Source: Rhizohabitans arisaemae (GTDB taxonomy: Bacteria > Actinomycetota > Actinomycetes > Streptosporangiales > Streptosporangiaceae). From it: DNA of 64,000 nt. A program made the translations under genes and the position numbers. Shown in pieces: positions 7,224-55,306 of this stretch (positions are counted from its first letter, which is position 1; every line of letters begins with the position of its first letter). The stretch lies in contig NZ_BLRH01000021.1 of assembly GCF_025996515.1 (NCBI RefSeq), positions 180,690 through 244,689 on the forward strand, in the 5' to 3' direction. The notes under the pieces were generated by a model. The model worked only from the letters and a program-made list of their open reading frames with translations. It did not search any database and was not told the origin of the DNA.

Positions 7224-7438
7224 GTGACATGACCTGGTGATCGCTTCGGTGCGCGCTCCCCGCGGGGGTGCGGATCAGGCGACCTTGGGTTGGGTACGGG
7301 CCGCGCCGGGTTGTCGCCGGAGGCGTGGTCCGGTGCCCGGGTCGCAGGCGGCCGTACGACCGTGAATCTCTCGCACAGCTGTCAAGGTATGCCGGTTCGC
7401 GTCACGTGCGGTCGCCGGTCGCCACCCGAAGGGATGCC

Positions 7439-12286: not shown

Positions 12287-12325
12287 GGAGGGGCAGGAAT
12301 CGTAGTATACGATTCCTGCCCCTCC
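12287..12325 (-). terminator. Perfect 18-bp inverted repeat, likely terminator
   Basis: GGAGGGGCAGGAATCGTA (12287-12304) and its exact reverse complement (12308-12325) are separated by three bases. No T-run follows on either strand, but the stem is very stable. It lies 25 bp past the stop of the orphan reading frame at 12351 and upstream of the gene starting at 12247, so it most likely ends transcription from the right. Confidence 0.6.
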
Positions 12326-18846: not shown

Positions 18847-19175
18847 ACGGAGGGCGCTACATCCGATATGTCTGGCTGGTAGGGGCGTATCGCGGCGTGC
18901 TTTTGCCGGGGTGTGTCGCCGGATTCGGCACCCGGAAACCCGGGGGAGTAGCGGCATGCCGTCCGGTCGGAACGCGGGCAGGCCGTCGATGTTCGTCAGG
19001 ACGGCGATGTGACGCGCAACCCGATAGGCGTGACCCCCTCTTCGCGCGGGTCCTGCTTTCCGTGTGACGGACATCCGCCGCTTCGAGCAGCCGGGCGCGA
19101 TCCCCGGGCTTCGTGGCGGGGAACCCGGGCGGACCGCCTCGGCTCCTGCCCAAGTCACCAAAGGGGACGGATCCG
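18847..19175. other. 329-bp gap inside the pca cluster
   Basis: The gap separates pcaG from pcaB. I see no convincing gene, terminator or promoter. A minus-strand frame here (fragments such as HIAVLTNIDGLPAFRPDGM) lacks family resemblance and is probably shadow sequence. The size suggests pcaBL may have their own promoter. Confidence 0.4.
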
Positions 19176-20594
19176 TTGACCGATCGGCCGGTGGACGCCG
19201 GGCTGCTCAACCCTGACTGGGCCGGGACCGCGGTCGAGCTCGCCACGGACGACGCCGCCTACGTTCGGGCGATGCTCGACGCCGAGACGGCGCTGGCGCG
19301 CGCCCAGGCCGCGCTGGGGCTCGCGCCCGCGGCGGCGGCCTCCGCCGTGGCCGCCGTGGCCGCCGGGCTCAAGCCCGACATGTCCGCGCTCGCACAGCGT
19401 GCCCGTACCGGCGGCAACCCGGTCATCCCGCTGGTGGCGGATCTGACCGCCGCGGTGGCCGAACGGGACCCGGGTGCGGCGCCGTACGTGCACCGGGGCG
19501 CCACCAGCCAGGACATCCTGGACACCGCCACCATGCTCATCGCCTTCCGGGCGTTGAGCCGCGTCCTGGACGACCTGGACCGTACGGCGGACGCCCTCGC
19601 CCGGCTGGCCGCCGCCCACCGAGACACCCCGATGGCGGGCCGTACCCTCACCCAGCACGCCGTGCCCACCACGTTCGGCCTGAAAGCCGCAGGGTGGCGC
19701 AGCCTCGTTTGCGCCGCGCGGGACCGCCTGGCCGCGGTACGGGCCGCGCTCCCCGCCCAGCTCGGCGGGGCGGCCGGCACCCTCGCCGCCTTCCACGCCT
19801 TCGCCGCCGCCGAACCCGGTGCGGGGACGGGCCCGGCATCCGGCGCGGGCGACGGCTCCGCCGGTGACCTGGGACTACGGCTGGTCGCCCGGTACGCCGC
19901 CGAGGTCGGGCTCGCCGAGCCCGCGCTGCCGTGGCACACGCTCCGGGCCCCGGTCGCCGACCTCGCCGCGGGATTGGCTTTCGCCGCGGGCGCCCTGGGC
20001 AAACTCGCGGCCGACGTCCTGACGCTGTCCCGTACCGAGATCGGGGAGGTCGCCGAGGGGAGCGGCGGCGGCTCCTCGGCGATGCCGCACAAGGCGAACC
20101 CGGTACGGGCGACGCTCGTCGCCGCCGCGGCCCGGCAGGTTCCGGCGCTCGCGTCCGTCCTGTTCGGCTCCCTCGCCGCCGAAGACGAACGTCCCGCCGG
20201 CGCCTGGCACGCCGAGTGGCAGCCGCTGCGGCAGGCGCTGCGCCTGGTCGGCGGCGCGGCCGCGGACACGGCCGAGCTCACCGCGGGGCTCCGCGTCCGT
20301 CCGGGCCGGATGCGGGCCAACCTCGGCCTGACCGGCGGCCTGATCGTCTCCGAGCGCCTGGCCGCGGAACTCGCCCCGCTGATCGGGCGGGCCGAGGCCA
20401 AGCGTGCCCTGACCGAGGCCGCCCGCCGCGCCGCGGAGGAGGGCACAGGCCTGGCGGAGGCGCTGCGGGCCGACCCGGCCGTCACGCACGCCCTGCCCCA
20501 GGCGAAGCTGCGCGAACTGTTGGATCCGGCCGGATACCTGGGCTCCGCCCCCGCGCTCGTCGACCGTGCTCTGGGTCGGACGGAGAGATCATGA
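19176..20594 (+). CDS. pcaB: 3-carboxy-cis,cis-muconate cycloisomerase
   Basis: The fumarase/aspartase-superfamily enzyme converts 3-carboxymuconate to 4-carboxymuconolactone. The superfamily signature GSSAMPHKANPVRA is present, as are GATSQDILDTA and the active-site-region motif TLTQHAVPTTFG. TTG 19176 is chosen because AAAGGGGACGG lies just upstream at 19160-19170; an ATG at 19113 would add an unlikely extension rich in proline and arginine. The product of 472 residues is slightly above the family norm. It is followed directly by pcaL. Confidence 0.9.
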   Translation: MTDRPVDAGLLNPDWAGTAVELATDDAAYVRAMLDAETALARAQAALGLAPAAAASAVAAVAAGLKPDMSALAQRARTGGNPVIPLVADLTAAVAERDPGAAPYVHRGATSQDILDTATMLIAFRALSRVLDDLDRTADALARLAAAHRDTPMAGRTLTQHAVPTTFGLKAAGWRSLVCAARDRLAAVRAALPAQLGGAAGTLAAFHAFAAAEPGAGTGPASGAGDGSAGDLGLRLVARYAAEVGLAEPALPWHTLRAPVADLAAGLAFAAGALGKLAADVLTLSRTEIGEVAEGSGGGSSAMPHKANPVRATLVAAAARQVPALASVLFGSLAAEDERPAGAWHAEWQPLRQALRLVGGAAADTAELTAGLRVRPGRMRANLGLTGGLIVSERLAAELAPLIGRAEAKRALTEAARRAAEEGTGLAEALRADPAVTHALPQAKLRELLDPAGYLGSAPALVDRALGRTERS

Positions 20595-20619
20595 CGGATT
20601 CCACGGCACAGGAGGGGCT

Positions 20620-21864
20620 TTGACCGGCATCGCGGTACCGCATCACCGGATCGACGGGGCGGAGTTCGCGCCCCCGCTGATCCTCGGCCCGTCGCTCGGC
20701 ACCTCGCTCACCGTCTGGGGGCCGCAGGTGTCCGGGCTCGCCCGCCACCACCGGGTGATCCGCTGGGATCTGCCGGGGCACGGCGGCTCGCCGGCCGGGC
20801 TGCTGCCGGACACCGCGCCGGGGGCGACCACGGTCGCCGACCTCGGACGATCGGTGCTGAACCTGGCGGACTCCCTGGGCGTGGAGCATTTCGCCTACGC
20901 GGGGATCTCCCTGGGCGGCGCGGTCGGGACCTGGCTCGCCCTCCACCACCCCGAACGGGTCACCCGGCTCGTCCTGGTCTGCTCGTCGGCCCGGTTCGGC
21001 GATCCGCAGATGTGGCGGGAACGGGCGGAGCTGGTACGCGCCGAAGGCACCGACCCCGTCGCCGACACGGCCGCCTCCCGCTGGTTCACCCCGGCCTTCG
21101 CCGGTTCCCCGCCGGCCACGTCGCTGGTGGCGGACATGCGCGCGGCCGACCGGGACGCCTTCGCCGCCTGCTGCGACGCGCTGGCCGTCTGGGACGCCCG
21201 CGCCGAGCTCCCGCGGGTCACGGCGCCCACCCTGGTGATCGCGGGGCGGGACGACCCGGCCACCCCGCCCGCGCACGCCCGGGAACTGGCCGACGGGATT
21301 CCCGGGGCGAGCCTGGTCGAGGTGGCCCGCTCGGCCCACCTGGTGGGCGTGGAGCGGCCCGCCCCCGTCCTGGCGGCGATACTGGACCACCTGGTGCCGG
21401 GCGTCTTCCCGCACGGCGTTTCCCCGGTTTCCCCGGTGACGCGGCCGGAGCCGGCTCGTCCGGAGCCCGGCCACACCACCCTGGACGACGGCTCCCGGTA
21501 CACCGCCGGGATGGCGGTACGGCGCGCGGTCCTCGGCGACGGACATGTGGACGGGGCCGTCGCCCGGACCACCGAGTTCACCGCACCGTTCCAGGACCTG
21601 ATCACCCGGTACGCCTGGGGCGAGATCTGGACCCGGCCCGGTCTGGACCGCCGGACCCGCAGCTGTGTCACGCTCACCGCGCTGGTCGCCCACGGACACC
21701 ACGAGGAGCTGGCCATGCACGTCCGCGCCGCGCTCCGCAACGGCCTCACCCCCGCCGAGATCGGCGAGGTCCTGCTCCAGACCGCGGTCTACTGCGGCGT
21801 ACCCGCCGCGAACAGCGCGTTCGCGGTGGCCGACCGGGTCCTCCGCGAGGAGCCCGAGCCCTGA
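20620..21864 (+). CDS. pcaL: Fused 3-oxoadipate enol-lactonase / 4-carboxymuconolactone decarboxylase
   Basis: The 414-residue protein joins two activities. Residues 1-~255 are an alpha/beta-hydrolase enol-lactonase (PcaD-like): nucleophile serine in YAGISLGGAVGTW, histidine in RSAHLVGVERP. A proline-rich linker follows, and from ~295 comes a PcaC-like carboxymuconolactone decarboxylase (YAWGEIWTRPGLDRRTR, then HVRAALRNGLTPAEIGEVLL). PcaL fusions are typical of Streptomyces and Rhodococcus relatives. TTG 20620 has GGAGGGG at 20611-20617. A tiny frame at 20591 (ten codons) overlaps the leader and is not considered a gene. Confidence 0.92.
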   Translation: MTGIAVPHHRIDGAEFAPPLILGPSLGTSLTVWGPQVSGLARHHRVIRWDLPGHGGSPAGLLPDTAPGATTVADLGRSVLNLADSLGVEHFAYAGISLGGAVGTWLALHHPERVTRLVLVCSSARFGDPQMWRERAELVRAEGTDPVADTAASRWFTPAFAGSPPATSLVADMRAADRDAFAACCDALAVWDARAELPRVTAPTLVIAGRDDPATPPAHARELADGIPGASLVEVARSAHLVGVERPAPVLAAILDHLVPGVFPHGVSPVSPVTRPEPARPEPGHTTLDDGSRYTAGMAVRRAVLGDGHVDGAVARTTEFTAPFQDLITRYAWGEIWTRPGLDRRTRSCVTLTALVAHGHHEELAMHVRAALRNGLTPAEIGEVLLQTAVYCGVPAANSAFAVADRVLREEPEP

Positions 21865-21913
21865 TCACCGCATACCGGCTGGGCCTCCCATTCCGCGTGC
21901 ACCCACTCGTCGA

Positions 21914-22077
21914 GCCGCCTGCGGCCGTACCGGATCCGCCTTCACCGGGGTTGTTCTGGTCTGTCCCACGCAGGCCGAGGCGCCGTGATCACCGGAAGGA
22001 ATGTCCGGTAGGGCCGCGCGGGGCACTCCTGTCGCGTGGTCGGCGCTCAAGCCGCCTGTGGCCGTACCCGATCCGCC
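21914..22077 (+). repeat. Imperfect 27-bp direct repeat in the pcaL downstream gap
   Basis: Two copies (21914-21940 and 22051-22077) share 25 of 27 bases; the core reads GCCGCCTGCGGCCGTACC, followed by GATCCGCC. The copies are 137 bp apart in the 472-bp convergent gap 21865-22336, which holds no supportable gene. A segment between them (GTGATCACCGGAAGG, near 21985) resembles sequence near 27834. These look like members of a dispersed intergenic repeat family. Confidence 0.65.
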
Positions 22078-22336
22078 GGTCCCGGACACCGGCCGATCGC
22101 AGTGGATCCTCCGTCGTGGGGGACGGCCGGGCACGACTCCGGTACGGCGGGAGCGTGGCCCGGCGGCGAACCCGGTTCGCCGCCGACGTGCCCGCCGACC
22201 TGCGGTCCCACCTCATCACGCTGCGCAGGGACGTCCTCAACTCTCGGAGACCCAGCAACCCGGACCCCGTCCGGGCGCACGCCGCCCGGCTGACCGACCG
22301 GGCGTGTTTCGCCGTACCGGCCTGGGCGACCGGGTC

Positions 22337-23545
22337 TCAGCGATGTGCGGACGCGTGTGCGCCGCGTGAGGACGGGCCGCGGGAGAACCGGCGGAAGTGG
22401 CGGGCGATCTGTTCGAGGTGACGGACCTCGTCGAGGAATCCGGCCTCCTGGGTCACGGGTGCGAGGTGAGCCGTGGCGGGACGGGTGCGGCCTTCGGCCG
22501 GGTCGGCGCGCAGGGCCAGGTGAATGGTCGCGGCCTCAAGGGCGGCGCGGGATCCGTCTGGGGCGGTCAACGCGCGGGCGCGGGTGAGGACGTCGTCGTC
22601 GATGTGGGGGCGCAGGGCGAGCTGGCCGTCACGGATCTCGATGACCGTCCGATACAGGTAGAAGCGCAGGCGGCGGAAGCGCCGGGACCTGCCGGCGGCG
22701 GAGGCCTCGGGCAGCAGGGTGATCGTCGGATCGGCCGCGTAGAGGGCCTGCCAGAGCGGAAAGAGCCGCCGGTAGGCCCGGTAGAGCCGCAGCCACTCCG
22801 CCGCTTTCCCCGTGTGCCGGGCCAGTGGGGGCATCATCAGGCCGACGAGCCCGAACAGGACGGTCAGCAGGTAGAGGACGCTCCCGGCGGCGTACTCGAA
22901 CTCGCCGACCCCGTCGAGGAGGAAGTACCCGGCCGTCAGCGCGCCCGCCTTCACCGCGCAGTAGAGCACCCCGAACACCGAGCTGACCGTGAGCATGCGC
23001 AGGCCCGCGCGCAGCGCGGTCCGATCCGCGAGGCGGGCGTACCGCCAGGTCACGATGCCGACCTTGACCTCGATGAACGCCACGTACCCGGCGTAGACGT
23101 ACACGTAAGGCGAGGAGTAGAGCACGTGGACGGGACGGGCGTCCACGCCGAGCGACGCCGCCGGTTGCGGGGGCGTCAGGGCGAACAGGACCGTCGCGGA
23201 GACCAGTGCCACGGCGAGTCCGGTCAGCTGCCACCGGGTCGTCAGCGGTGTCCCGGCCTCGTCGTGGCTGCGGAGCAGCAGGAAACCGTAGCCGCCGCCG
23301 AGCGCGACCATCGTGGCGGCGTTGCCCAGGAATCGGCCCAGGTTCGCGATGCCGGTGACCCCGTCGATCCACGGGGCGGCGAACTGCGCGCTCATCGCCA
23401 CGGCGAGCATGCCGAGGGTCAGGCAGAGGACTCTCAGCGACGGATTGCCGGGATCGCGCCGGAGCAGCACCAGCTTGTGCCCGAACGCCGCCCAGGACCC
23501 GAGGATCAACGCGCCGACGACGACGATTCGCGGCAGGTCATCCAT
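22337..23545 (-). CDS. MAB_1171c-like integral membrane protein
   Basis: The first ~245 of 402 residues contain about seven hydrophobic helices, beginning with VVVGALILGSWAAFGHKL. A cytoplasmic C-terminal domain follows (YRRLFPLWQALYAADP, then RFYLYRTVIEIRDGQLALRP), which is the conserved part of this actinobacterial family. It has been labelled a putative transporter, but a sensor role is equally possible. The gene is last in a minus-strand operon and overlaps the ImmA/IrrE-type protease gene by eight bases. The three-gene set recurs in actinomycetes, implying the three products work together. Confidence 0.8.
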   Translation of the reverse strand: MDDLPRIVVVGALILGSWAAFGHKLVLLRRDPGNPSLRVLCLTLGMLAVAMSAQFAAPWIDGVTGIANLGRFLGNAATMVALGGGYGFLLLRSHDEAGTPLTTRWQLTGLAVALVSATVLFALTPPQPAASLGVDARPVHVLYSSPYVYVYAGYVAFIEVKVGIVTWRYARLADRTALRAGLRMLTVSSVFGVLYCAVKAGALTAGYFLLDGVGEFEYAAGSVLYLLTVLFGLVGLMMPPLARHTGKAAEWLRLYRAYRRLFPLWQALYAADPTITLLPEASAAGRSRRFRRLRFYLYRTVIEIRDGQLALRPHIDDDVLTRARALTAPDGSRAALEAATIHLALRADPAEGRTRPATAHLAPVTQEAGFLDEVRHLEQIARHFRRFSRGPSSRGAHASAHR

Positions 23546-24122
23546 GGGCGGGTGACCGGGGGGAGTCGACGCCGCGTTCGAATCGCATGAGGCCCGAACG
23601 GGTGGCCGGATCCGTCGGGAGCTCCCGCGCGGGTGCCCACTCGGCCTGCTGCAGGATCAGCGACGCGATCATTTCCGCTTCCCGCTCCTCTTCGGTGGAG
23701 TACCTGGTCCGGGCCAGAAGCCGCCCGACGACCGCCGGATCAAGATGCGGAAACAGCACCCGCGCGTGCGCGGCGTCCATGGCCGGCGGCTGCGGTGGGC
23801 CCGGCGGCCCTTGGGCGCCGCGCGGGTCGGGCCGGCTCCGGGAGGCCTCGTGGCGGCAGATCATGTGGCCGATCTCGTGCAGCACGATGTGTTCCTGGTG
23901 GAAGCGGCTGGTGGCCTGCTCGTGGAAGATGTAGTCGGTGGTGTCGCCCGCGATCCACAGACCTCCGGGGCCCGGGGAGGGGAACTCCATGGGCGCGACG
24001 ATCAGCGGGCGGCCGCGCCGCCGGGCCAGCTCGACGCAGAGCTTCGTCAGATCGAAGGGGCGCGGGATGAAGACCTCTTTGAGGCGTCGGCGGCACCGGC
24101 GTTCGAGTGCGCTGAGTTCCAC
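23538..24122 (-). CDS. ImmA/IrrE-family zinc metallopeptidase
   Basis: The 194-residue protein has the family zinc motif HEIGHMICRHE (HExxH at 82-86). The N-terminal half is basic and rich in arginine. It starts at GTG 24122, 24 bp after the XRE gene. ImmA/IrrE peptidases typically cleave a partner XRE-type repressor to relieve repression. The partner is probably the gene just upstream and the membrane protein just downstream could supply the input signal. Cleavage of this XRE protein is inferred, not shown. Confidence 0.85.
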   Translation of the reverse strand: MELSALERRCRRRLKEVFIPRPFDLTKLCVELARRRGRPLIVAPMEFPSPGPGGLWIAGDTTDYIFHEQATSRFHQEHIVLHEIGHMICRHEASRSRPDPRGAQGPPGPPQPPAMDAAHARVLFPHLDPAVVGRLLARTRYSTEEEREAEMIASLILQQAEWAPARELPTDPATRSGLMRFERGVDSPRSPAHG

Positions 24123-24146
24123 TTACGTGATCTCCTCCGCCGAAGT

Positions 24147-24584
24147 TCAGCCGTCCTGCCTGGGTGGGAGTCCTTCGAGCTCGCGGACCCGCGCGACGAC
24201 CTCGCGGAGCGAGTCGAGGCTGGCCGCCGACAGCCCGTCGGCCCGCAGCGCGAGGTCCCGCACCCGTGCGTCCCGCATCGCCGCCACCAGTGCCAGCTCG
24301 GATTCGACCTGTACGGCGACCGCTTCGTCGAAGAAGTAGGCGACCGGTACGCCGAAGAACCGCGCGAGCGCCGTGATGTGCTTGAGCGTCGGGTTGTCGC
24401 GTTGCCCGGTCCGCAGGTACCAGAGGTAGGAGGCCGAGATCGTGACCTCCTGGTCGCGGCCCACGGCTGAGGCGACCTCGTCGTTGCTGTACTCCCGGCG
24501 GCCGCTCTCCCGGACCGTCGCGAACAGGTAGTTCAGCCGGTCGGCCAGCGTGCGGCCGGTAGTGGACGCCTCATCGGGATCCAT
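24147..24584 (-). CDS. XRE-family HTH transcriptional regulator
   Basis: The 145-residue protein has an N-terminal helix-turn-helix (about 15-85): ADRLNYLFATVRESG, then SYLWYLRTGQRDNPTLKHI and ALARFFGVPVAYFFDE. The C-terminal ~60 residues are helical. This layout is usual for partners of ImmA/IrrE peptidases. First gene of the three-gene operon and divergent from a secreted protease gene, with a long inverted repeat between the two. It may repress its own operon, the protease, or both. Confidence 0.88.
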   Translation of the reverse strand: MDPDEASTTGRTLADRLNYLFATVRESGRREYSNDEVASAVGRDQEVTISASYLWYLRTGQRDNPTLKHITALARFFGVPVAYFFDEAVAVQVESELALVAAMRDARVRDLALRADGLSAASLDSLREVVARVRELEGLPPRQDG

Positions 24585-24649
24585 CTGCGCCCCTTTACGC
24601 CGGACGGCTTGTGACTGAGGTGGAGATTCTACCCGAAGTTTTGATCTTG

Positions 24650-24689
24650 ACTGATGTTAATTCTCTGGCTCATGAGAATCGACATCAGT
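24650..24689. promoter_or_regulatory. 40-bp interrupted inverted repeat between XRE gene and protease gene
   Basis: ACTGATGT (24650-24657) and ATTCTC (24660-24665) are mirrored by GAGAAT (24674-24679) and ACATCAGT (24682-24689). The stem is 14 paired bases with one 2-nt mismatch and an 8-nt centre. It lies in the divergent 202-bp gap and could be the operator of the XRE regulator. The duplicated leader of the second protease lacks it. Confidence 0.55.
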
Positions 24690-24786
24690 TGACGATGTTC
24701 ATGGCCGAAACTAGCATTCCAGTTTGACAGACATGTAGAAAAGATCTTTATCCTTCATTTCAGTCAAACCTCCCGAAGGGGCTGTC

Positions 24787-26085
24787 ATGCGGATACGTCG
24801 TTCGCGCACCGCAGTGGTCATCGGGGTGGCGATACTCTCCCTGATGGGGACTCCTGCCACCCACACCCACGCCGCCCCGATTGAACCCGCCCCTCTGCCG
24901 GCGCGGGGTGTCGACCGGGTTCTCCTCGTCAACCAGGCCAGGATCACGAAGGTCTCCGAACGGATCCTGAAGGCGGCCGAGGCGCTGCCGGGTGACTCCG
25001 GGTTCGCCGGCAGCAGCACCGATCAGGCGAGGTCCCGGCTCACGCTGTACTGGCACGGGAAGGTCCCCGCCGGCGTGCGGAGCGCGGCGGACTCCGACCC
25101 GGGTGTCCAGGTGACGGTTGTGCCCGCCGCGTTCAGCCTGAAGACACTGAAGAAAGCCCAGCAGGCGGTGGCGGACCAGAACCCGCCCGGCAAGCGCGTG
25201 AACGGGCTGCCGTCGATCGTCTCGGCGGCCCCGGCCGTGGACGGCAGCGGGCTCGAGGTGGAGGTCGAGACCGTCAAGGGTCTGACCACGCCTGGTTCAC
25301 CGGTTCGGGCGAAGGAGCGGTTCAGGACGGTCACCGGCGAGGTCCCGGTGACCGTCACCGAGACGACACGGCCGACCTTCGCCCGTCACAACGGTCAGGC
25401 CTACGGCGGCGCGCAGTACTTCGTCTACGGAGGTACCTGTTCCCAGGGGTTCTCCCTGTGGGCGTGGGGCTCATGGAGTTACATGCTGACGGCAGGGCAC
25501 TGCGGTACCGACGGTTCGTGGGCCTACCCGCCGCAGGGCTCAACCCCGTATGCGCATGTCGTCCAGCGGGATGTCAATCACGACACCGCGCTGCTGATGC
25601 CGAGCCACGGCTCCAGCCAGAGCCACTTCAGGAACCAGATCTGGTGGGGCGGCCCCGACGAGCATTCACTGCGTGCCAACGTCACGGGTGTGGCGCCCCC
25701 GGTGAGCAGCAATGACCTGGTGTGCCCCTCCGGAGGTTTTTCCGGATCCTACTGCGACGTTCTCGTCGGCAATCCCAATACGTTTATCGACATGGAGAAC
25801 CCGTTGCCCCCCTACCAGATGATCCGAATTTGGGACGTTGCCACCGTCATCGCCTTCCACGGCTATAACCCGGTCTGGGGCCAAGGCGACAGTGGCGGTC
25901 CGGTCGTCACCTATGACGGTAACCCTGCGGGTAACGTCGCCGCCGTCGGGACCATCATCTCCTCGTACGGTGAGCTGTCGCCCTGCCGCGGCTTCTTTTA
26001 CCGGACCTGCATGAATCGTGGCGTCTACGCCCGCCTCGACCGCTTCCTGGCCCGCAATCCTTCCTTCCAGCTTCGCACCTGGTGA
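24787..26085 (+). CDS. Secreted S1-type serine protease with propeptide (copy 1)
   Basis: The 432-residue preproprotein has a signal peptide (about 1-30, RIRRSRTAVVIGVAILSL) and a propeptide to about residue 195. The trypsin/alpha-lytic-like catalytic domain has His238 (LTAGHC), Asp266 (NHDTALL) and Ser369 (GQGDSGGPV). Four or more cysteines suggest disulfides. GAAGGGG lies eight bases before ATG. It is divergent from the XRE/ImmA module, which may control it. A paralogue follows in tandem, with a matching upstream leader. The substrate is unknown. Confidence 0.9.
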   Translation: MRIRRSRTAVVIGVAILSLMGTPATHTHAAPIEPAPLPARGVDRVLLVNQARITKVSERILKAAEALPGDSGFAGSSTDQARSRLTLYWHGKVPAGVRSAADSDPGVQVTVVPAAFSLKTLKKAQQAVADQNPPGKRVNGLPSIVSAAPAVDGSGLEVEVETVKGLTTPGSPVRAKERFRTVTGEVPVTVTETTRPTFARHNGQAYGGAQYFVYGGTCSQGFSLWAWGSWSYMLTAGHCGTDGSWAYPPQGSTPYAHVVQRDVNHDTALLMPSHGSSQSHFRNQIWWGGPDEHSLRANVTGVAPPVSSNDLVCPSGGFSGSYCDVLVGNPNTFIDMENPLPPYQMIRIWDVATVIAFHGYNPVWGQGDSGGPVVTYDGNPAGNVAAVGTIISSYGELSPCRGFFYRTCMNRGVYARLDRFLARNPSFQLRTW

Positions 26086-26382
26086 CATTCGGGGGCGCCC
26101 TCACCGCCACGACCTCTTCCTTTCATGTTCGGGGCCGGTCGGGGAATCGGGTCAAACTCTGATCCGGCCGCAGTACCTATCCACATGCCCCTTTGTGCCG
26201 AACCATTCGTGACTGAGGTGGAGATTGTATCGGGCGGTTTCGACTTTGACTTGAATAAAGACGATCGGTTGCTAAGTTCCATTTCCGTTGGCCATTGTCG
26301 TTGTCGGAATTAGCATTTTGGCTTTGGCGGGAATGTAGGAAATGTCTTTCAAGTCGTCATGTCGGTCAAAGAAGGGACTGCT

Positions 26383-27684
26383 ATGCGGTCACGTCGTTCG
26401 CGCACCGTAACGGTCATCGGGGTGGTGATGCTTTCTCTGGTGGGGACTTCCGCCACCCACGCCCACGCCGCCCCGCTCGACCCGGGATCCCTGCCGACAC
26501 CCGGCATCGACGACCGGTCCGTCCTCGTCAAGCAGGCAAGGGTCACGAAGGTCGCCGAACGGATCGTGAAGGCGGCGGAGGCGCTGCCCGGCGACTCCGG
26601 GTATTCGGGCATTCGCACCGACCCGGCGAATTCCCGGTTCACGCTGTACTGGCACGGGAAGGTCCCCGCCGGTGTGCGGGAGGCAGCGGAATCCGACCCG
26701 GGCGTGGAGGTGTCGGTGATGTCGGCCGCGTTCAGCCTGAGGACGCTGAAGAAAGCCCAGAAGGCGGTGTCGGACCAGAACCCGCCCGGTCGGCGCGTGA
26801 ACGGGCTCTCGCCGATCGTCTCGGTGGCTCCGGCCGTGGACGGCAGCGGGCTCGAAGTGGCAATCGAGGCCGTCAAGGGTGTGACCACACCCCAGTCGCT
26901 GGTTGAGACACAGCGGTGGTTCGGAACCGTCACCGGCGAGGTCCCGGTGACCGTCACCGAGACGACTCGGCCGGTCGCCACCGGCCGCCACGACGGCCAG
27001 GCCCACGGCGGTGCGCGGTTCGTCGTATCCGGACGCACCTGTACCCAAGGGTTCTCCCTCTGGGCGTGGGGCTCATGGAGCTACATGCTGACGGCCGGGC
27101 ACTGCGCCGCTGAGGGCTGGACGGCCACCCAGCCGCAGCCCTCGGCGCCGTACGCGCATGTCGTGCAGCGGGAGGTCAACTACGACACCGAGCTGCTGAT
27201 GCCGAGCCATGGCACCAGCCAGAGCTTCTTCACGAGGCAGATCTGGTGGGGCGGCCCTTACGAGCATTCGCTGCGCGCCAACGTCGCGGGTACGGCGGCC
27301 CATCGCTCGGGTGACCGGGTCTGCGCCTCCGGAGGCTTCAGCGGAGTCCATTGCGACGTGATCATCGACAACCCCGATGCCTTCATGGACTTCGAGAACC
27401 CGTTGCCACCGTTTGGACGTACCCGAGTATGGGATGTCGCCATCGTCATGGCCTCCGGCCCCGACAACCCGGTCTGGGGCGAGGGCGACAGCGGCAGTCC
27501 GGTCGTCACCTATGACGGCAACACCGCGGGCAACGTCTACGCCAACGGGATCATCAGCATCGCCTTCGGCAACATAGTGGACTGCCGGGGCATCCGTGGC
27601 CGGAAATGCTGGAACCGCGGAGCCTACGCCCGCCTTGACCGCTACCTGGCCCGCAATCCCTCCTTCCAGCTCCGCACCTGGTGA
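26383..27684 (+). CDS. Secreted S1-type serine protease with propeptide (copy 2)
   Basis: This is a tandem paralogue of the preceding protease, similar through signal peptide, propeptide and catalytic domain. The triad is intact: His240 (LTAGHC), Asp268 (NYDTELL), Ser370 (GEGDSGSPV). The primary-site loop differs from copy 1 (SGSPV in place of SGGPV). ATG 26383 has GAAGGG six bases upstream; an earlier ATG at 26359 is less likely because copy 1 begins at the equivalent residue. The duplicated leader (GTGACTGAGGTGGAGATT at 26209-26226) also occurs upstream of copy 1 at the same distance. A terminator hairpin follows immediately. Confidence 0.9.
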   Translation: MRSRRSRTVTVIGVVMLSLVGTSATHAHAAPLDPGSLPTPGIDDRSVLVKQARVTKVAERIVKAAEALPGDSGYSGIRTDPANSRFTLYWHGKVPAGVREAAESDPGVEVSVMSAAFSLRTLKKAQKAVSDQNPPGRRVNGLSPIVSVAPAVDGSGLEVAIEAVKGVTTPQSLVETQRWFGTVTGEVPVTVTETTRPVATGRHDGQAHGGARFVVSGRTCTQGFSLWAWGSWSYMLTAGHCAAEGWTATQPQPSAPYAHVVQREVNYDTELLMPSHGTSQSFFTRQIWWGGPYEHSLRANVAGTAAHRSGDRVCASGGFSGVHCDVIIDNPDAFMDFENPLPPFGRTRVWDVAIVMASGPDNPVWGEGDSGSPVVTYDGNTAGNVYANGIISIAFGNIVDCRGIRGRKCWNRGAYARLDRYLARNPSFQLRTW

Positions 27685-27687
27685 TCC

Positions 27688-27720
27688 GGTGGGGCGGTCT
27701 CGCCGCCCCACCTTCCGTTT
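27688..27720 (+). terminator. Rho-independent terminator after protease copy 2
   Basis: GGTGGGGCGG (27688-27697) pairs with CCGCCCCACC (27703-27712) across a 5-nt loop. TTCCGTTT follows. It starts three bases after the protease stop codon. Confidence 0.75.
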
Positions 27721-27958
27721 CCCCACGCCCCGGCCAACCGGTTGGGATTCCCTCAAGCCCCGCACCGAACGTCAGGCCGATGCTCCTCATGGTGGGGAGA
27801 TCAGCTCGATCCACGGGGCGTCCGAGGCGGTGTCGTGATCACCTGGAGTGGTGTCCGGTACGGGCTCCGCTCGGCCTCCCTGGACTGCGCCCGCCGACCC
27901 CGGTCCTGCACCCGCTGAGCATGTGTCCTGGATGGAAGCCGGAAATCGGGGGAACGGG

Positions 27959-28021
27959 TCAGGTTCTGAGCTTGCCCCGGTACCAGCCGTAGCACTGGCA
28001 CTCAGGTCCCCTCACCGGCAT
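27959..28021 (-). pseudogene. Possible 3' remnant of a small secreted-protein gene
   Basis: A 20-codon minus-strand frame ends with QCYGWYRGKLRT. It resembles the end of the 84-residue secreted protein at 42018-42272 (QGNGYYWGRIRV). The DNA of the two ends is about 74% identical over 34 bases by hand alignment. An in-frame TGA stands just before the ATG, so nothing longer survives. The rest of the gap 27721-28088 holds a GTGATCACC-type repeat near 27834 and nothing else I can support. Confidence 0.3.
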
Positions 28022-28088
28022 TCCTCAGGATGAACATGGGGTGCCGGTCCGCTGTGCGGACTGGTCCATTGCCCGGATGTTCCAGTGA

Positions 28089-28174
28089 CTACAGAGTTGG
28101 CGAAACCGCGCCGCGATTAACGCATAGTCGCCGTTTGCCTGACATATCCGCCCATAGGGGCGTCAACTCTGTAG
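28089..28174. promoter_or_regulatory. Split inverted repeat flanking the catabolic-operon promoter
   Basis: CTACAGAGTTGGCG (28089-28102) and CGTCAACTCTGTAG (28161-28174) are reverse complements at 13 of 14 positions, 58 bp apart. The right arm abuts the ribosome site of the hydantoinase gene (GTG 28185). A smaller hairpin CGCCC-ATAG-GGGCG lies just left of the right arm. These are good operator candidates for the operon's own MarR or IclR protein. Confidence 0.6.
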
Positions 28175-28184
28175 GGAGATCAGT

Positions 28185-30314
28185 GTGGGAAGTACGACGG
28201 ACGCCGCTGAGCGGTTCTTCGTCGGCACCGACGTCGGGGGGACCTTCACCGACCTCGTCGTCCTGCAGGACGGCCGGCCGCCGCGCCTGTTCAAGGCGCC
28301 GACCACCCCGCACGACCGGTCCGAGGGCGTGGTCGCTGCGCTGTCCCTGGCCGCCGCCTCGTACGGGATGGACCTGAACGCCTTCTGCGGGTCCATCGTG
28401 TACTTCGCGCACGGCACCACCGCCGCGACCAACGCCCTGATCGAGCGGAAGGGCACCCCCACGGCGCTGCTGACCACGCACGGGTTCACCGACACCATGC
28501 TGATCCAGCGCTCGATGACCTCCTGGGTCGGCCTCGGCGCCGCCACCGGCCACTACAGCAGGCGGCGCAACCCCGCGCCGATCGTGGCCCGCGACCGCAT
28601 CGCCGGGGTCACCGAGCGGATCGACGCCACCGGTACCGAGGTGGTCGCCCTCGACGAGCAGGAGGTACGCGGACTGCTCCGGCGGCTGCGCGCCGAAGGC
28701 GTCCAGGCCCTCGCGGTCGCGTTCCTCTGGTCGTTCGTCAACGGGGCACACGAGACCGCGGTGGAACGCATCGTGGCGGAGGAGTGGCCGGAGGCGTATC
28801 TGACCCTCTCCCACCAGGTCGCCCCGGTGATCGGCGAGTACGAGCGGTCCGCCACCACCGTGGTCAACAGCTACCTCGGCCCGGTCATCCGCGACTACGT
28901 GGCGAACCTGGAGGGACGGCTGCGCGCGAACGGCTTCGACGGCGACTTCTCGATCATGGACTCGGGCGGCGGGGTGATGCGGGCCGAGGACGCGGCGCGG
29001 CGTGCGGCGTCGATGCTCACCTCAGGTCCCGCCGGAGGTGTCCTGGCCTCCGTCTCGCTCGCCCGCAGACTCGGCCACACCGAGGTCATCACCTCCGACA
29101 TGGGCGGCACCAGCTTCGACGTCGGCCTGATCATCGGCGGGCAGCCCCTGGTGGAGCGGGTCGGAGAGGTCGGCGACCTGCACCTCGCGCTACCCCGGAT
29201 CAAGGTGACCGCGATCGGGGCGGGCGGCGGCTCCGTCGCCCGGGTGGACGAGGCGGGTGTGCTCGTCGTCGGCCCGGAGAGCGCGGGCTCGGTCCCCGGC
29301 CCCGCCTGCTACGGCCGCGGCGGCGACCGGCCGACCGTGACCGACGCCGACGTCGTGCTCGGCATCATCGACCCGGCGCGTTTCCTGGGCGGGCGGATGC
29401 CGTTGGAGCGTTCCCTGGCGGAGAAGGCCATCCTCGTCCATGTGGCCGGTCCGCTCGGGCTGAGCGTGGAGGAGGCCGCGGCCGGGATCCGCCGGGTCGC
29501 CGACAACCAGATGGCGGACCTGCTCCGCAAGGTCACCGTCGAACAGGGCCATGACCCCCGGGACTTCACCGTCTACGCGTACGGCGGCGCGGGCCCCACC
29601 CACGCCTACGCCTACACCGAGGCCGCGGGGATCTCCACCCTGGTCGTGCCGCCCACCTCGACCGTGCACTCCGCGTACGGCACGGTCACCTCCGACCGCT
29701 ACCGCGCCGTCCAGACCACCGACGTACAGCGGACCCCGCCCGGTGCGCCCGACCCGGCCGTCCACCTGGACACGGCACGGATCAACGCGACGCTCGGCGA
29801 GCTGACCCGCCGCTGCCGCGCCGACCTCGACGACGACCCGCGGGTACGGCTGACGCGCATCGCCTACCTGAAGTTCCGGCGCCAGTCCCACGAGCTCCCG
29901 CTCCCCGTGCCGGACGGCGAGGTCACCGCCGGTGTGCTGCGTGAGCTGATCGAGGAGTTCCGGGACGCCTACGAACGGGTGTACGGCGCGGGGACCGCGC
30001 TGCTCGCGGCCGGGGTCGAACTGCACACCCTGCGGGTGGAGGGCCGGGTCCGGGTCACCGACGTGACGGAGGGGGCGTACCCGGGCTCCGCCGACCCGGC
30101 CGAGTCGCTGCTCGGCTCACGCCAGGTGCACTTCCCCGAGACCGGCCGGGTCGCCACCGCCGTGTACCGGGGGGACGGACTCGGCGCGGGGGCCGAGCTG
30201 CGCGGCCCCGCGATCCTGGAGTTCCCCGGCACCACCGTCGTGATCGGCCCCGGTCAGCTGCTCACCGTCGACCGGTACAGCAACCTCGTCATCGACTGCA
30301 AGGGGGACTCGTGA
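28185..30314 (+). CDS. HyuA-type hydantoinase/acetone-carboxylase beta-like subunit
   Basis: The 709-residue protein belongs to the hydantoinase/oxoprolinase family. The ASKHA-type nucleotide site is visible at the N-terminus (VGTDVGGTFTDLVVLQDG) and again in SDMGGTSFDVGL. With the HyuB partner, such proteins use ATP either to hydrolyse lactams or hydantoins or, in acetone and acetophenone carboxylases, to carboxylate ketones. The GTG start follows GTAGGGAG. The 4-nt overlap with the next gene implies a fixed 1:1 complex. It heads a 13-gene operon with a zinc-ribbon-extended HyuB and aromatic ring-cleavage genes, which makes carboxylation of an aromatic ketone plausible; the substrate is inferred. 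Confidence 0.85.
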   Translation: MGSTTDAAERFFVGTDVGGTFTDLVVLQDGRPPRLFKAPTTPHDRSEGVVAALSLAAASYGMDLNAFCGSIVYFAHGTTAATNALIERKGTPTALLTTHGFTDTMLIQRSMTSWVGLGAATGHYSRRRNPAPIVARDRIAGVTERIDATGTEVVALDEQEVRGLLRRLRAEGVQALAVAFLWSFVNGAHETAVERIVAEEWPEAYLTLSHQVAPVIGEYERSATTVVNSYLGPVIRDYVANLEGRLRANGFDGDFSIMDSGGGVMRAEDAARRAASMLTSGPAGGVLASVSLARRLGHTEVITSDMGGTSFDVGLIIGGQPLVERVGEVGDLHLALPRIKVTAIGAGGGSVARVDEAGVLVVGPESAGSVPGPACYGRGGDRPTVTDADVVLGIIDPARFLGGRMPLERSLAEKAILVHVAGPLGLSVEEAAAGIRRVADNQMADLLRKVTVEQGHDPRDFTVYAYGGAGPTHAYAYTEAAGISTLVVPPTSTVHSAYGTVTSDRYRAVQTTDVQRTPPGAPDPAVHLDTARINATLGELTRRCRADLDDDPRVRLTRIAYLKFRRQSHELPLPVPDGEVTAGVLRELIEEFRDAYERVYGAGTALLAAGVELHTLRVEGRVRVTDVTEGAYPGSADPAESLLGSRQVHFPETGRVATAVYRGDGLGAGAELRGPAILEFPGTTVVIGPGQLLTVDRYSNLVIDCKGDS

Positions 30315-32500
30315 CCGCCACGGCCATCGACCCGGTGACCTTCGAGGTCATCCGCCACCGCCTGCTCGCCATCACCGACGAGCAGGGCGCCACCCTCGCC
30401 GCCATCTCCGGCTCGACCCACGTGGTGGAGGCGAGCGACTACAACGTGGGGCTCTACCTGCCGGACGGCTCGGTGGCCGCGATGGGTCGTACGATCCTCT
30501 CGCACTCCTCGTCCATGGCGGCGATCACCCGGTCGGTGATCGAGGACTGTGCCGAGGACCCCGGCATCAACCCGGGCGACATGTTCATCGTCAACGACCC
30601 GTGGAAGGGCACGGTCCACGCCCAGGACGTCGGCCTGATCGCGCCGATCTTCCACGAGGGGGAGCTGCTCGCCTGGACCGGCGCCATGTGCCACATGGTG
30701 GACGTGGGCGGAATGACCCCGGGCAGCTTCTGCATCGACGCGACCGACTCCTACCAGGAGGGCCTGCAGATGCCGCCGACGAAACTGGTCGACGGCGGGA
30801 AGGTCCGCACCGACGTCTGGAACCTGATCCTCGCGCACACCCGGATGCCGGCCACCGTCAACCTGGACCTGCGTGCCCTGGTCGGGGCGAACAACACCGC
30901 GATCCGGGCGATGACCGCGCTCGCCGCCAAGTACGGCGCCGGCGTGGTCCGGACCGTGATGGGCAACCTCATCGAGCTCTCGGAGCGGCGGCTCCGCAAC
31001 CGCCTGGCCCGGCTCCCCGACGCCCGGTTGCACTCCCGGGCGTTCCTCGACAACGACGGCGGCCTCGCCGGATCCGCGGAGAACGCCGTCCACGAGGTGG
31101 ATCTGGTCCTCACCAAGCGCGGGGACACCCTGCACTTCGACTACTCGGGTTCGTCGCCGCAGGTGAAGGGATACGTCAACTGCGCGTACTCCGGGATGAT
31201 GGCCGGGATCGCGGCGGCGCTGCTGCCCACCCTCGCCTACGACGCGCCCTGGAACGAAGGCCTGTTCAAGCCGGTCCGGGTGGACTGCCCGGAGGGGCTG
31301 ATCTGCAACGCGGTCCGCCCGGCCGCCGTGAGCGGCGGGGCGCTGGAGGCCGGCTGGCTGGTGGAGATGACCGCCGTGGAGTGCCTGTCCAAGCTGGCGG
31401 CCTGCTCGGACGAGCTGCTGGGGGAGGCCCAGGCCGTCCCGGCGGGCGGTCCCGACAAGTTCGTGCTGACCGGCGCGGGGGAGAACGGCGCCCGCCAGAC
31501 CTACGTGATCATGGACTGCCTCGCCACCGGAGGGGCCGCCTACGCCCACCGCGACGGGGTCTGGACCCAGGGCCAGCACAACATCGAACGGCAGAAGATC
31601 TCCAACGTGGAGGCCGTCGAGATGGACTCGCCCCTGCTCTACCTGTGGCGCGGCCTGGTCCCCGACTCCGGCGGAGCCGGGCGCACCCGCGGCGGCCTGA
31701 GCATGGGCGCCGTCTACACCGTGCACGGCGGCCGGGACGTCAGCGCGCTCAACTCGGCGCACGGCTGGGCGGTGCCCAACTCGACCGGGATCTTCGGCGG
31801 GTACCCCGGCGCGCAGAACACCCGGACCGTGGTGCACGACAGTGACGTCAAAGCCCGGCTTGCCGCCGGGCACCTCCCCTCCGTGGCGGAGCTCTCCGGG
31901 GAACGGCCGGTCATGCGCGGACGGCAGGGGCTTTACCGGCTCGGCGACGACGACGTCCTGGCGACCGTGCCCCAGGCGGGCGGCGGCTGGGGCGACCCGC
32001 TGGAGCGTCCCGCCGATCATGTCCAGGCCGACCTGGACTTCGGCGCGGTAACCCCCGGCGCGTCGGAACGGATCTACCGGGTGGTGCTCGACCCCGAGGG
32101 CCGGGTCGACCAGGCAGCCACCGAGAGTCTGCGGGCCGGAGTCCGCGCCGAGCGGCGCGACTGGCCGGCCGAAAAGGCGCCGCCGGACCGTCCGGCGGGC
32201 CCGCTCACCCGGATCCATCCGCTGGGCGACGCGCTGGAGGTCGTCGAGGCAGACGGTGCCCGCTGGACGGCCTGCACCTGCGGGTTCGCCTTCGCCCCCG
32301 TGCAGGAGCCGTGGCGGCCGTACGCCGGGCTCCGCGCCGTACAGGACATCCGCGAACTCAGCCACGCCACCCGACTGGACGAGGACCTGGAGCTGCGCTG
32401 CTACGCCTGCCCCGGCTGCGGGCGGCTGCACGCCGTGGACGTGGTACGGCGCGGCGCGGACCACCTGGACGACCTCCGGCTGCTCGGCGGGGAGGCGTGA
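30311..32500 (+). CDS. HyuB-type subunit with C-terminal acetone-carboxylase-gamma-like zinc ribbon
   Basis: Residues 1-~560 of 729 match the hydantoinase B/oxoprolinase family (AMGRTILSHSSSMAAITR, then MFIVNDPWKGTVHAQD). The remaining ~100 residues carry five cysteines in a CxC ... CxxCxxC pattern (Cys655, Cys657, Cys697, Cys700, Cys703). In acetone carboxylase a separate small gamma subunit has a comparable zinc site, so this looks like an alpha-gamma fusion. Ordinary HyuB proteins end near residue 550-600. GTG 30311 overlaps hyuA by four bases, and the stop overlaps the LigB-like gene by one base. The gamma assignment rests on the cysteine pattern and neighbours only. Confidence 0.8.
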   Translation: MTATAIDPVTFEVIRHRLLAITDEQGATLAAISGSTHVVEASDYNVGLYLPDGSVAAMGRTILSHSSSMAAITRSVIEDCAEDPGINPGDMFIVNDPWKGTVHAQDVGLIAPIFHEGELLAWTGAMCHMVDVGGMTPGSFCIDATDSYQEGLQMPPTKLVDGGKVRTDVWNLILAHTRMPATVNLDLRALVGANNTAIRAMTALAAKYGAGVVRTVMGNLIELSERRLRNRLARLPDARLHSRAFLDNDGGLAGSAENAVHEVDLVLTKRGDTLHFDYSGSSPQVKGYVNCAYSGMMAGIAAALLPTLAYDAPWNEGLFKPVRVDCPEGLICNAVRPAAVSGGALEAGWLVEMTAVECLSKLAACSDELLGEAQAVPAGGPDKFVLTGAGENGARQTYVIMDCLATGGAAYAHRDGVWTQGQHNIERQKISNVEAVEMDSPLLYLWRGLVPDSGGAGRTRGGLSMGAVYTVHGGRDVSALNSAHGWAVPNSTGIFGGYPGAQNTRTVVHDSDVKARLAAGHLPSVAELSGERPVMRGRQGLYRLGDDDVLATVPQAGGGWGDPLERPADHVQADLDFGAVTPGASERIYRVVLDPEGRVDQAATESLRAGVRAERRDWPAEKAPPDRPAGPLTRIHPLGDALEVVEADGARWTACTCGFAFAPVQEPWRPYAGLRAVQDIRELSHATRLDEDLELRCYACPGCGRLHAVDVVRRGADHLDDLRLLGGEA

Positions 32501-55194: not shown

Positions 55195-55242
55195 TCGCGC
55201 GGGTCTGAAATTTCCTGAGTTGTCAGGGTGGCTCTCTTGCTA

Positions 55243-55283
55243 GCTAACAGCGTTAGCCTTAGAGTGAGGCTAACGTTGTTAGC
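55243..55283. promoter_or_regulatory. Two palindromic operators, GCTAAC-N3-GTTAGC
   Basis: GCTAACAGCGTTAGC (55243-55257) and GCTAACGTTGTTAGC (55269-55283) are each perfect apart from the 3-nt centre. Their starts are 26 bp apart. The extended region is itself nearly palindromic. They end 23 bp before the GTG of the membrane-protein gene and are good sites for the TetR protein encoded two genes on. Confidence 0.75.
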
Positions 55284-55306
55284 TAGGCAAGCCCAAGGAG
55301 CTCCCC

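Follow-up and report, generated by a model that had tools for sequence, protein, structure and literature searches.

An EspR-like regulator, an M78-type peptidase and a MAB_1171c/DUF6545 membrane protein as a candidate membrane-to-DNA switch by proteolysis in Rhizohabitans arisaemae

In the BlaR1/MecR1–BlaI/MecI systems, a membrane sensor leads to proteolysis of a repressor and to derepression of a secreted enzyme, with sensor and protease residing in one polypeptide. Protease-driven derepression is likewise a known principle in ImmR–ImmA, DdrO–IrrE and CapH–CapP. For ImmR–ImmA of the Bacillus subtilis element ICEBs1, the protease is described as relieving repression on a cell–cell signal, with RapI and a peptide acting on the protease (PMC6540685); for DdrO–IrrE and CapH–CapP, cleavage of the repressor is described as derepressing its targets, and activation of PprI by single-stranded DNA as requiring its C-terminal GAF-like domain (PMC10904395). 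Here, we analyse a three-gene module in a stretch of 64,000 nt (hereafter the window; Rhizohabitans arisaemae contig NZ_BLRH01000021.1, positions 180,690-244,689 of the forward strand, assembly GCF_025996515.1), in which the genes for an EspR-like XRE regulator (xre), an M78/ImmA-IrrE-type metallopeptidase and a MAB_1171c/DUF6545 membrane protein stand divergently to two genes for predicted secreted serine proteases. We propose that the module would act as a membrane-to-DNA switch by proteolysis, and we put the probability of this whole circuit at roughly 0.55.

The module genes all lie on the minus strand, i.e., xre at 24147..24584 (145 amino acids [aa]), the peptidase gene at 23538..24122 (194 aa, with the motif HEIGH) and the membrane-protein gene at 22337..23545 (402 aa; NF042915 3e-62, PF20182 6e-29), an assignment made in the initial annotation and borne out by open reading frame (ORF) calls and by the Pfam and NF042915 matches. 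Described there as an overlapping operon, the genes do overlap between peptidase and membrane protein (8 bp), whereas xre and the peptidase gene are separated by 24 bp. Beyond the 3′ end of the membrane-protein gene, the minus strand holds only ORFs of at most 89 aa, up to a convergent gene at 20566-21864. On the plus strand, trypsin-like protease 1 (24787..26085, 432 aa) and its tandem paralogue protease 2 (26359..27684, 70% identical to protease 1) both have signal-peptide-like N termini, TAGHC and a GDSG motif (GDSGG in protease 1; GDSGG/GDSGS over the pair), such that the divergence from signal-peptide serine proteases also stands. Protease 1 weakly matches Pfam Trypsin (0.049) and the serine proteinase 2sfa (0.024), and protease 2 has no Pfam match of its own. 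An Rfam scan of 21800-28200 gave no match.

Judged by its nearest solved relative, the regulator is by sequence an EspR homologue, not a phage-type repressor: residues 10-139 of its 145 align to residues 5-133 of Mycobacterium tuberculosis EspR (E 1.7e-20, phmmer against solved structures), a full-length similarity that includes the C-terminal domain. An N-terminal helix-turn-helix (HTH) is thus predicted to be followed by a dimerisation-type domain; the PADLOC capH model matches the regulator as well (8e-07). Polyubiquitin rows in the structure search, some with low E, had no passing stretch and were discarded as spurious. EspR has been described as combining an N-terminal HTH with a C-terminal dimerisation domain, as a modelled dimer of dimers that binds cooperatively, with a preferred motif TTTGC[TC][GA]; it represses its own gene, and in the espR control region, protection covers two motifs arranged as an inverted repeat (PMC3315491).

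A 40-bp inverted repeat had been reported from the control region shared by xre and protease 1, and it is present there at exactly that length (24650..24689). Its arms (24650-24665 and 24674-24689) are complementary at 14 of 16 positions (88%) around an 8-nt loop, and when the 202-bp intergenic region was shuffled 300 times, the best pairing obtained was 13. A search with a 9-base exact seed listed 17 other inverted repeats with arms of at least 15 nt in the window, omitting the 40-bp repeat itself, probably since its longest exact stretch is shorter than the seed; as repeats with long arms occur elsewhere in the window, the palindrome alone is not compelling. It is the conserved motif in its arms, as recognised from sequence, that makes it so. 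Allowing up to 3 mismatches, a genome-wide search found this repeat at a single place. A looser head-to-head pattern yielded one further genomic site (contig C8, GC-rich), set aside as probably due to chance, and half-sites sought in the window at 3 mismatches numbered 12, with 12.3 expected, i.e., chance level.

The motif emerges from the upstream regions of regulator genes in relatives and in the window's own locus (up to 350 bp each; 79 non-redundant of 84), where the seed CAGTTGA has exact copies in 25/79 regions, as opposed to 1.8 in shuffles. A 24-column position weight matrix (PWM), trained on 44 regions whose regulators are at least 44% identical and with the window left out, yielded TTCACnccAGTTGAcg as its consensus. 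When both strands of the window were scored with this matrix, the two arms of the repeat came first and second: the right arm as S3 (24677..24700, plus strand, 13.6 bits, rank 1) and the left arm as S2 (24639..24662, minus strand, 13.0 bits, rank 2), so that the 40-bp repeat reads as a head-to-head operator pair with a core spacing of 39. Two more putative operators flank this pair, namely S4 in the protease leader (24752..24775, plus strand, 12.3 bits, rank 4), which partly coincides with one arm of another inverted repeat, I2 (24722-24769; 17-nt arms, 82%), and S1 at the presumed xre transcription start (24603..24626, minus strand, 10.6 bits, rank 6). In a four-fold held-out test at 9 bits, 37 of the 44 regions were matched (3.05 in shuffles); for regulators below 44% identity, the figure was 13 of 34 (3.0 in shuffles). 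At 8 bits, there were 161 matches in 57 of 78 regulator control regions (training set included), versus 5 matches in 78 stretches of 300 bp taken elsewhere in the same loci. Where the fetched stretch holds no EspR-like gene (25 loci), the region upstream of the peptidase gene never matched (1.9 expected), so that the motif tracks the regulator. In relatives, the spacing of head-to-head pairs is concentrated at 37-40 bp (four neighbouring spacing classes, 32 pairs), with other classes at 7, 24-25 and 42-47, while no single spacing in shuffles exceeded 3; at 39, the spacing in the window lies within the enriched class. Binding of the regulator to the shared control region is very likely on this sequence evidence. 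The suggestion that the XRE protein acts there is hence upheld by a conserved operator pair, one copy of which covers the protease −35 box, with the correction that the operators number at least four and do not form a single repeat.

The sole promoter-like site in 24100-28300 (0.5 expected in shuffles) is that of protease 1, TTGACG-17-TAGCAT (24689..24717, plus strand, 9/12 matches), in the sequence context CAGTTGACG; S3 contains its −35 hexamer, TTGACG. On the xre side, S2 covers the presumed −35 region, and S1 and S2 flank TAGAAT, taken by eye as the −10 box. Among relatives, TTGAC is present in 28 of 66 outward-facing operator copies, 23 of these 28 being followed by TANNNT 16-19 nt onward (chance 4%), as against 3 of 47 inward-facing copies, none with the second box; because the −10 position lies beyond the span of the matrix, this −35/−10 pattern is independent of matrix building. 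Placement of an operator over the predicted −35 box of a promoter leading away from xre is therefore recurrent (23/66 outward copies). Such placement is typical of repressors. Since S3 sits on the −35 box, S4 in the leader, and S1 and S2 around the xre promoter, the regulator would hold down transcription of the protease gene and of its own operon, and we infer from the S1-S4 layout a geometry of repression for both. The regulator likely represses the protease promoter, and the label of repressor given in the initial annotation fits this geometry, for a protein that is EspR-like by homology and not of the phage CI type.

The sign of control could also be the reverse. EspR is a nucleoid-associated protein with positive control of espACD (PMC3315491), and its homologue here might be an activator or architectural protein working from the same operators, in which case the peptidase would switch the proteases off by removing it. 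We regard this as unlikely: the −35 hexamer falls within S3 and S4 follows the −10 box, the same −35 placement is found at 23 promoters of relatives, and for EspR itself the site closest to the espA promoter is described as more than 300 bp upstream and its effect on its own gene as negative (PMC3315491). Repression, the preferred reading, may extend in weaker form to protease 2. Between the two protease genes, the stretch 26197..26358 derives from a duplication of the protease 1 control region and has in part decayed (alignment score 44; maximum 9 in 200 shuffles), with weaker operator matches at 26201-26224 and 26238-26261 (both minus strand; PWM ranks 9 and 14). Within the protease 2 control region (26085-26359), an S1-like copy is identical over 18 nt and the −10 box is kept; S2-S3 is degraded, and protease 2 may for this reason be under weaker control.

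The peptidase scores below the Pfam M78 cut-off (14.3 bits; cut-off 22), and M78 (PF06114) is matched at E <=0.01 by 28 of 50 aligned members, the window peptidase being among the other 22. Nine residues are identical in all 50 rows, the window included (G54, H82, E83, H86, H91, R138, E146, A149 and E150), comprising the HExxH motif and downstream glutamate (H82, E83, H86, E150) of an intact active site. By sequence, the peptidase profile had no match to solved structures up to E 1, and the PADLOC capP match is weak (0.04). With the predicted model (predicted local distance difference test score, pLDDT, 83.2), Foldseek placed CapP and IrrE at the top of its list, with E 0.12 or worse, and VIA-align gave Z 11.9 for IrrE (root-mean-square deviation 2.6, 103 residues), 11.4 for PprI and 9.5 for CapP (107 residues), followed by an M. 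tuberculosis regulator at 9.1 and unrelated rows from ~4.8 downward. Residues 1-162 of the model correspond to residues 9-129 of the 243-residue IrrE chain; ~30 peptidase residues remain, and the C-terminal sensor part of IrrE/CapP is absent from the 194-aa peptidase in this comparison. The predicted fold is hence IrrE/CapP-like over the catalytic part only. With no room for a sensor part in the peptidase, the signal would have to come from elsewhere.

The membrane protein is a member of the MAB_1171c family (NF042915, 210.8 bits; cut-off 100). Its AlphaFold2 (AF2) model (pLDDT 88.8) has seven predicted transmembrane helices at about 3-30, 35-55, 69-93, 96-123, 146-172, 176-207 and 213-245, the last of which extends into the cytoplasm to residue 271, and the more positive loops on the C-terminal side predict an N-out/C-in topology. 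Column conservation is highest in the cytoplasmic stretches 246-275 (2.39) and 288-346 (2.52), compared to 1.47-2.12 in the membrane-spanning helices and the outer loops, and is lower in the cytoplasmic linkers 276-287 (1.82) and 347-369 (1.37). L264, R299, I302, E303, I304 and D306 are invariant in 54 alignment rows. Foldseek ranked G-protein-coupled receptors (GPCRs) first (probability near 1, E 0.018 or worse), and VIA-align, a re-alignment of Foldseek's own candidates, gave Z 14.7-17.9 over 214-250 residues, with the 50 entries shown all being GPCRs or designed GPCR-like proteins. This likeness is one of helix arrangement in a predicted model, with no claim of common descent; such an arrangement argues for a protein that is receptor-like rather than a transporter. 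The NCBI name for NF042915 is nonetheless 'putative transporter', and a Mycobacterium abscessus MAB_1171c mutant forming about half the biofilm was read by its authors as a transport mutant (PMC8707978). On a transporter reading, the xre-peptidase pair would only regulate transport. Given that DUF6545 is the sole Pfam match at E 0.1, that no solved structure is significantly matched by sequence, and that the model is a single seven-helix bundle running into the cytoplasm with its strongest conservation in the cytoplasmic helices, we consider a transporter improbable and retain the receptor.

Conservation of the module was surveyed with one genome per species, in the best 80 of 348 confirmed stretches encoding relatives of the membrane protein, i.e., loci found through that protein; from their record titles we take them to be actinobacterial, many being Streptomyces. 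The peptidase gene is directly upstream of the membrane-protein gene in 77/80 loci (exceptions without an adjoining peptidase: L066, L134, L139), and the EspR-like gene is also there in 44/80. In L066 (Fodinicola, 5978-8176), a single frame runs through all three proteins; in its regulator portion, the match ends near residue 75 and what follows looks out of frame, probably through a frameshift, and the locus was not used as evidence of a fusion. The membrane protein has one copy in its own genome and is above the cut-off in 12 of 60 genomes, mostly of the same family. Two loci (L061, 3108-8179; L064, 3076-8170) hold two peptidase-membrane pairs back to back around ~0.8 kb of shared intergenic region, with an EspR-like gene accompanying one pair of the two. 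Of the 80 loci, 25 (e.g., L084, L089, L094-L096, L103) encode peptidase and membrane protein with neither an EspR-like gene in the fetched stretch nor an operator.

The module is also carried by mobile elements, as seen in eleven plasmid regions (one of them unannotated) and one phage region. The usual order on plasmids of Streptomyces and Amycolatopsis is HTH gene, peptidase, MAB_1171c and then a fourth gene, encoding a cytochrome P450, amidase, polysaccharide deacetylase, FAD monooxygenase or PAP2 phosphatase; in one region the HTH gene lies behind the peptidase-membrane pair, and in another the fourth gene is hypothetical. In M. abscessus phage Adler, family hidden Markov models (HMMs) find the triad followed by a P450 gene, the membrane protein matching its HMM at 2e-16; the window membrane protein found none among phage records by tblastn at E <=0.01, and an IMG/VR scan with the peptidase gave 5 distant loci. 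For same-strand downstream genes from genome and record loci together, Pfam was run on 40 of 47, giving P450 (5), amidase (3), α/β-hydrolase (3), PAP2 (3) and aldo-keto reductase (2), the remainder belonging to single families or none. The fourth gene on plasmids and phage (L058-L062, L064, L151-L153) could make or break a ligand; no fourth tailoring-enzyme gene is present in the window.

Mobility of this kind would also suit a toxin-antitoxin or immunity cassette, in which xre and the peptidase would form a mobile addiction or phage-control pair, with the membrane protein as an accessory and the proteases incidental. Peptidases in plasmid records are labelled 'toxin' (three records), 'ImmA/IrrE' or hypothetical, and a 2009 catalogue listed COG2856-Xre pairs as putative toxin-antitoxin or derepression pairs, while its authors set aside three membrane-protein/Xre pairs as not toxin-antitoxin (PMC2701414). 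Against a cassette of this type, 77 of 80 loci (themselves found through the membrane protein) pair that protein with the peptidase, making it the constant partner, and invariant catalytic residues along with an operator on the outward promoter in relatives better fit a signalling protease; we deem an addiction function hardly probable and keep to signalling.

What the switch controls varies from locus to locus. Scored on seven candidates per genome, the protease is present at E <=1e-30 in 2/250 family genomes, i.e., its own and, as a 36% relative, G004; four further, distant relatives of the protease lie within 9 kb elsewhere in its own genome (contig C23, 246866-255852). The window membrane protein found itself only at E <=1e-50 in 250 family genomes, and there is thus no close orthologous locus for comparison. 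A protease was found next to the module in this genome only; elsewhere, other genes do so, often for secreted proteins. We have consequently dropped the notion that the module generally serves proteases: although the protease −35 box lies inside an operator here, the protease link is local, and 'protease switch' would be the wrong name for the module itself. By a home-made signal-peptide heuristic with a 21% background rate, divergent genes beside regulators of at least 50% identity are secreted-like in 12/23 cases, versus 186/872 other genes (p 0.0013; 11/22 and p 0.003 without the window), whereas beside more distant regulators they are so in 3/12 (p 0.49), which reduces secreted output from a general rule to a tendency. 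Two I36 peptidase inhibitors and one ricin-B lectin were identified among the secreted-like genes of the ≥50% set; outside it were a TAP-like hydrolase beside a 47% regulator and a phospholipase A2 in L038 (not in the secreted-like count). Pfam left five of ten divergent proteins tested without a match, and of 34 divergent genes beside an EspR-like gene given to Pfam (part of 57 listed), 5 encode SARP/BTAD-type regulators and the others are mostly single cases. Since the divergent gene differs between loci, the window protease would be one of many possible loads.

The mechanism that we propose is as follows. The regulator would bind the shared control region at four or more operator copies, holding down the protease gene and its own operon. 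The seven-helix membrane protein would be the receptor for an extracellular ligand, as suggested by its predicted fold, topology and conserved cytoplasmic domain; upon ligand binding, the cytoplasmic domain would activate the adjoining M78 peptidase, as suggested by the gene pairing and by the sensor part missing relative to IrrE/CapP. By analogy with ImmA-ImmR, IrrE-DdrO and CapP-CapH, the peptidase would then cleave the regulator at a site probably within the C-terminal dimerisation domain; loss of the regulator would allow expression of the secreted protease and of the module genes. Conservation of the module, the intact active site and a conserved operator on the outward −35 box are shown at the level of sequence; the receptor-like and IrrE-like folds are predicted, and repression, ligand sensing, receptor-peptidase coupling and regulator cleavage we infer.

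Several observations weigh against this proposal. Concerning the regulator, (i) its homologue EspR activates espACD in its own host, and a positive role here is possible; (ii) no regulator is directly upstream in 36/80 loci, so the peptidase-membrane pair can do without one; and (iii) no motif match was found in 7/44 held-out regions and 21/34 distant regions. Concerning the operators and promoters, (iv) the seed CAGTTGA was a choice by eye, and the window was among the regions inspected for it, although the matrix itself leaves the window out; and (v) the promoter search reported no site on the xre strand, the xre −10 box being the one picked by eye. Lastly, (vi) the Foldseek E values of both the peptidase and the membrane-protein models are weak, and seven-helix bundles are prone to chance matches; and (vii) by the genome survey, the protease output is not conserved.

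The wider surroundings comprise flanking genes at 19113-21864 and 28185-32500, including an α/β-hydrolase/CMD fusion and a hydantoinase/oxoprolinase gene (Pfam for these two proteins), which presumably resemble an aromatic-catabolism (pca-type) set. Near-perfect inverted repeats occur away from the module at 55240-55286 (20-nt arms, 95%) and 12287-12325 (18-nt arms, 100%).

The MAB_1171c/DUF6545 family, common among actinobacteria and still lacking an assigned function, is found beside SARP/BTAD-type regulators, secreted hydrolases and inhibitors. With a defined operator, a promoter and three small genes, the path from signal to transcription is testable in one heterologous reporter strain, and testing the whole path would give this family a function. 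More tentatively, and at well under even odds, the family might constitute widespread actinobacterial GPCR-like receptors that signal without phosphorylation, via a separate, soluble M78 protease destroying an EspR-like repressor that occupies the −35 box of a divergent gene, with the fourth-gene tailoring enzyme making or removing the ligand in a hormone-like communication that also resides on plasmids and prophage, and with the secreted protease pair as its output here. The open-licence literature returned no paper on the three-gene module, on DUF6545 or on EspR together with ImmA, and MAB_1171c appeared in a single paper, the biofilm-mutant study cited above.

Set against the described systems, the module resembles ImmR-ImmA with RapI-PhrI in that HTH-regulator and M78-type protease genes are side by side and copies reside on mobile elements; it differs in that the membrane protein is the constant partner and the regulator is EspR-like. 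With DdrO-IrrE/PprI of Deinococcus and CapH-CapP of cyclic-oligonucleotide-based antiphage signalling (CBASS), it shares a predicted M78-type fold (Z 11.9 and 9.5); unlike IrrE/PprI and CapP, the peptidase matches the catalytic part only and is paired with a membrane protein. To our knowledge, no M78 or MAB_1171c partner is known for espR. The likeness to EspR itself lies in full-length homology, in the autoregulation proposed here and in inverted-repeat operators, whose core xTTG[AC]Y[GA] resembles by eye the EspR motif; in contrast to EspR, with its hundreds of sites genome-wide (PMC3315491), the repeat here occurs once. Ultimately, as far as the open-licence literature shows, what would be new is the EspR-like partner, the operator and a receptor-like membrane protein replacing the built-in sensor: cytosolic sensors are on record for protease-driven derepression, whereas here a seven-helix membrane protein seems to take on that task.

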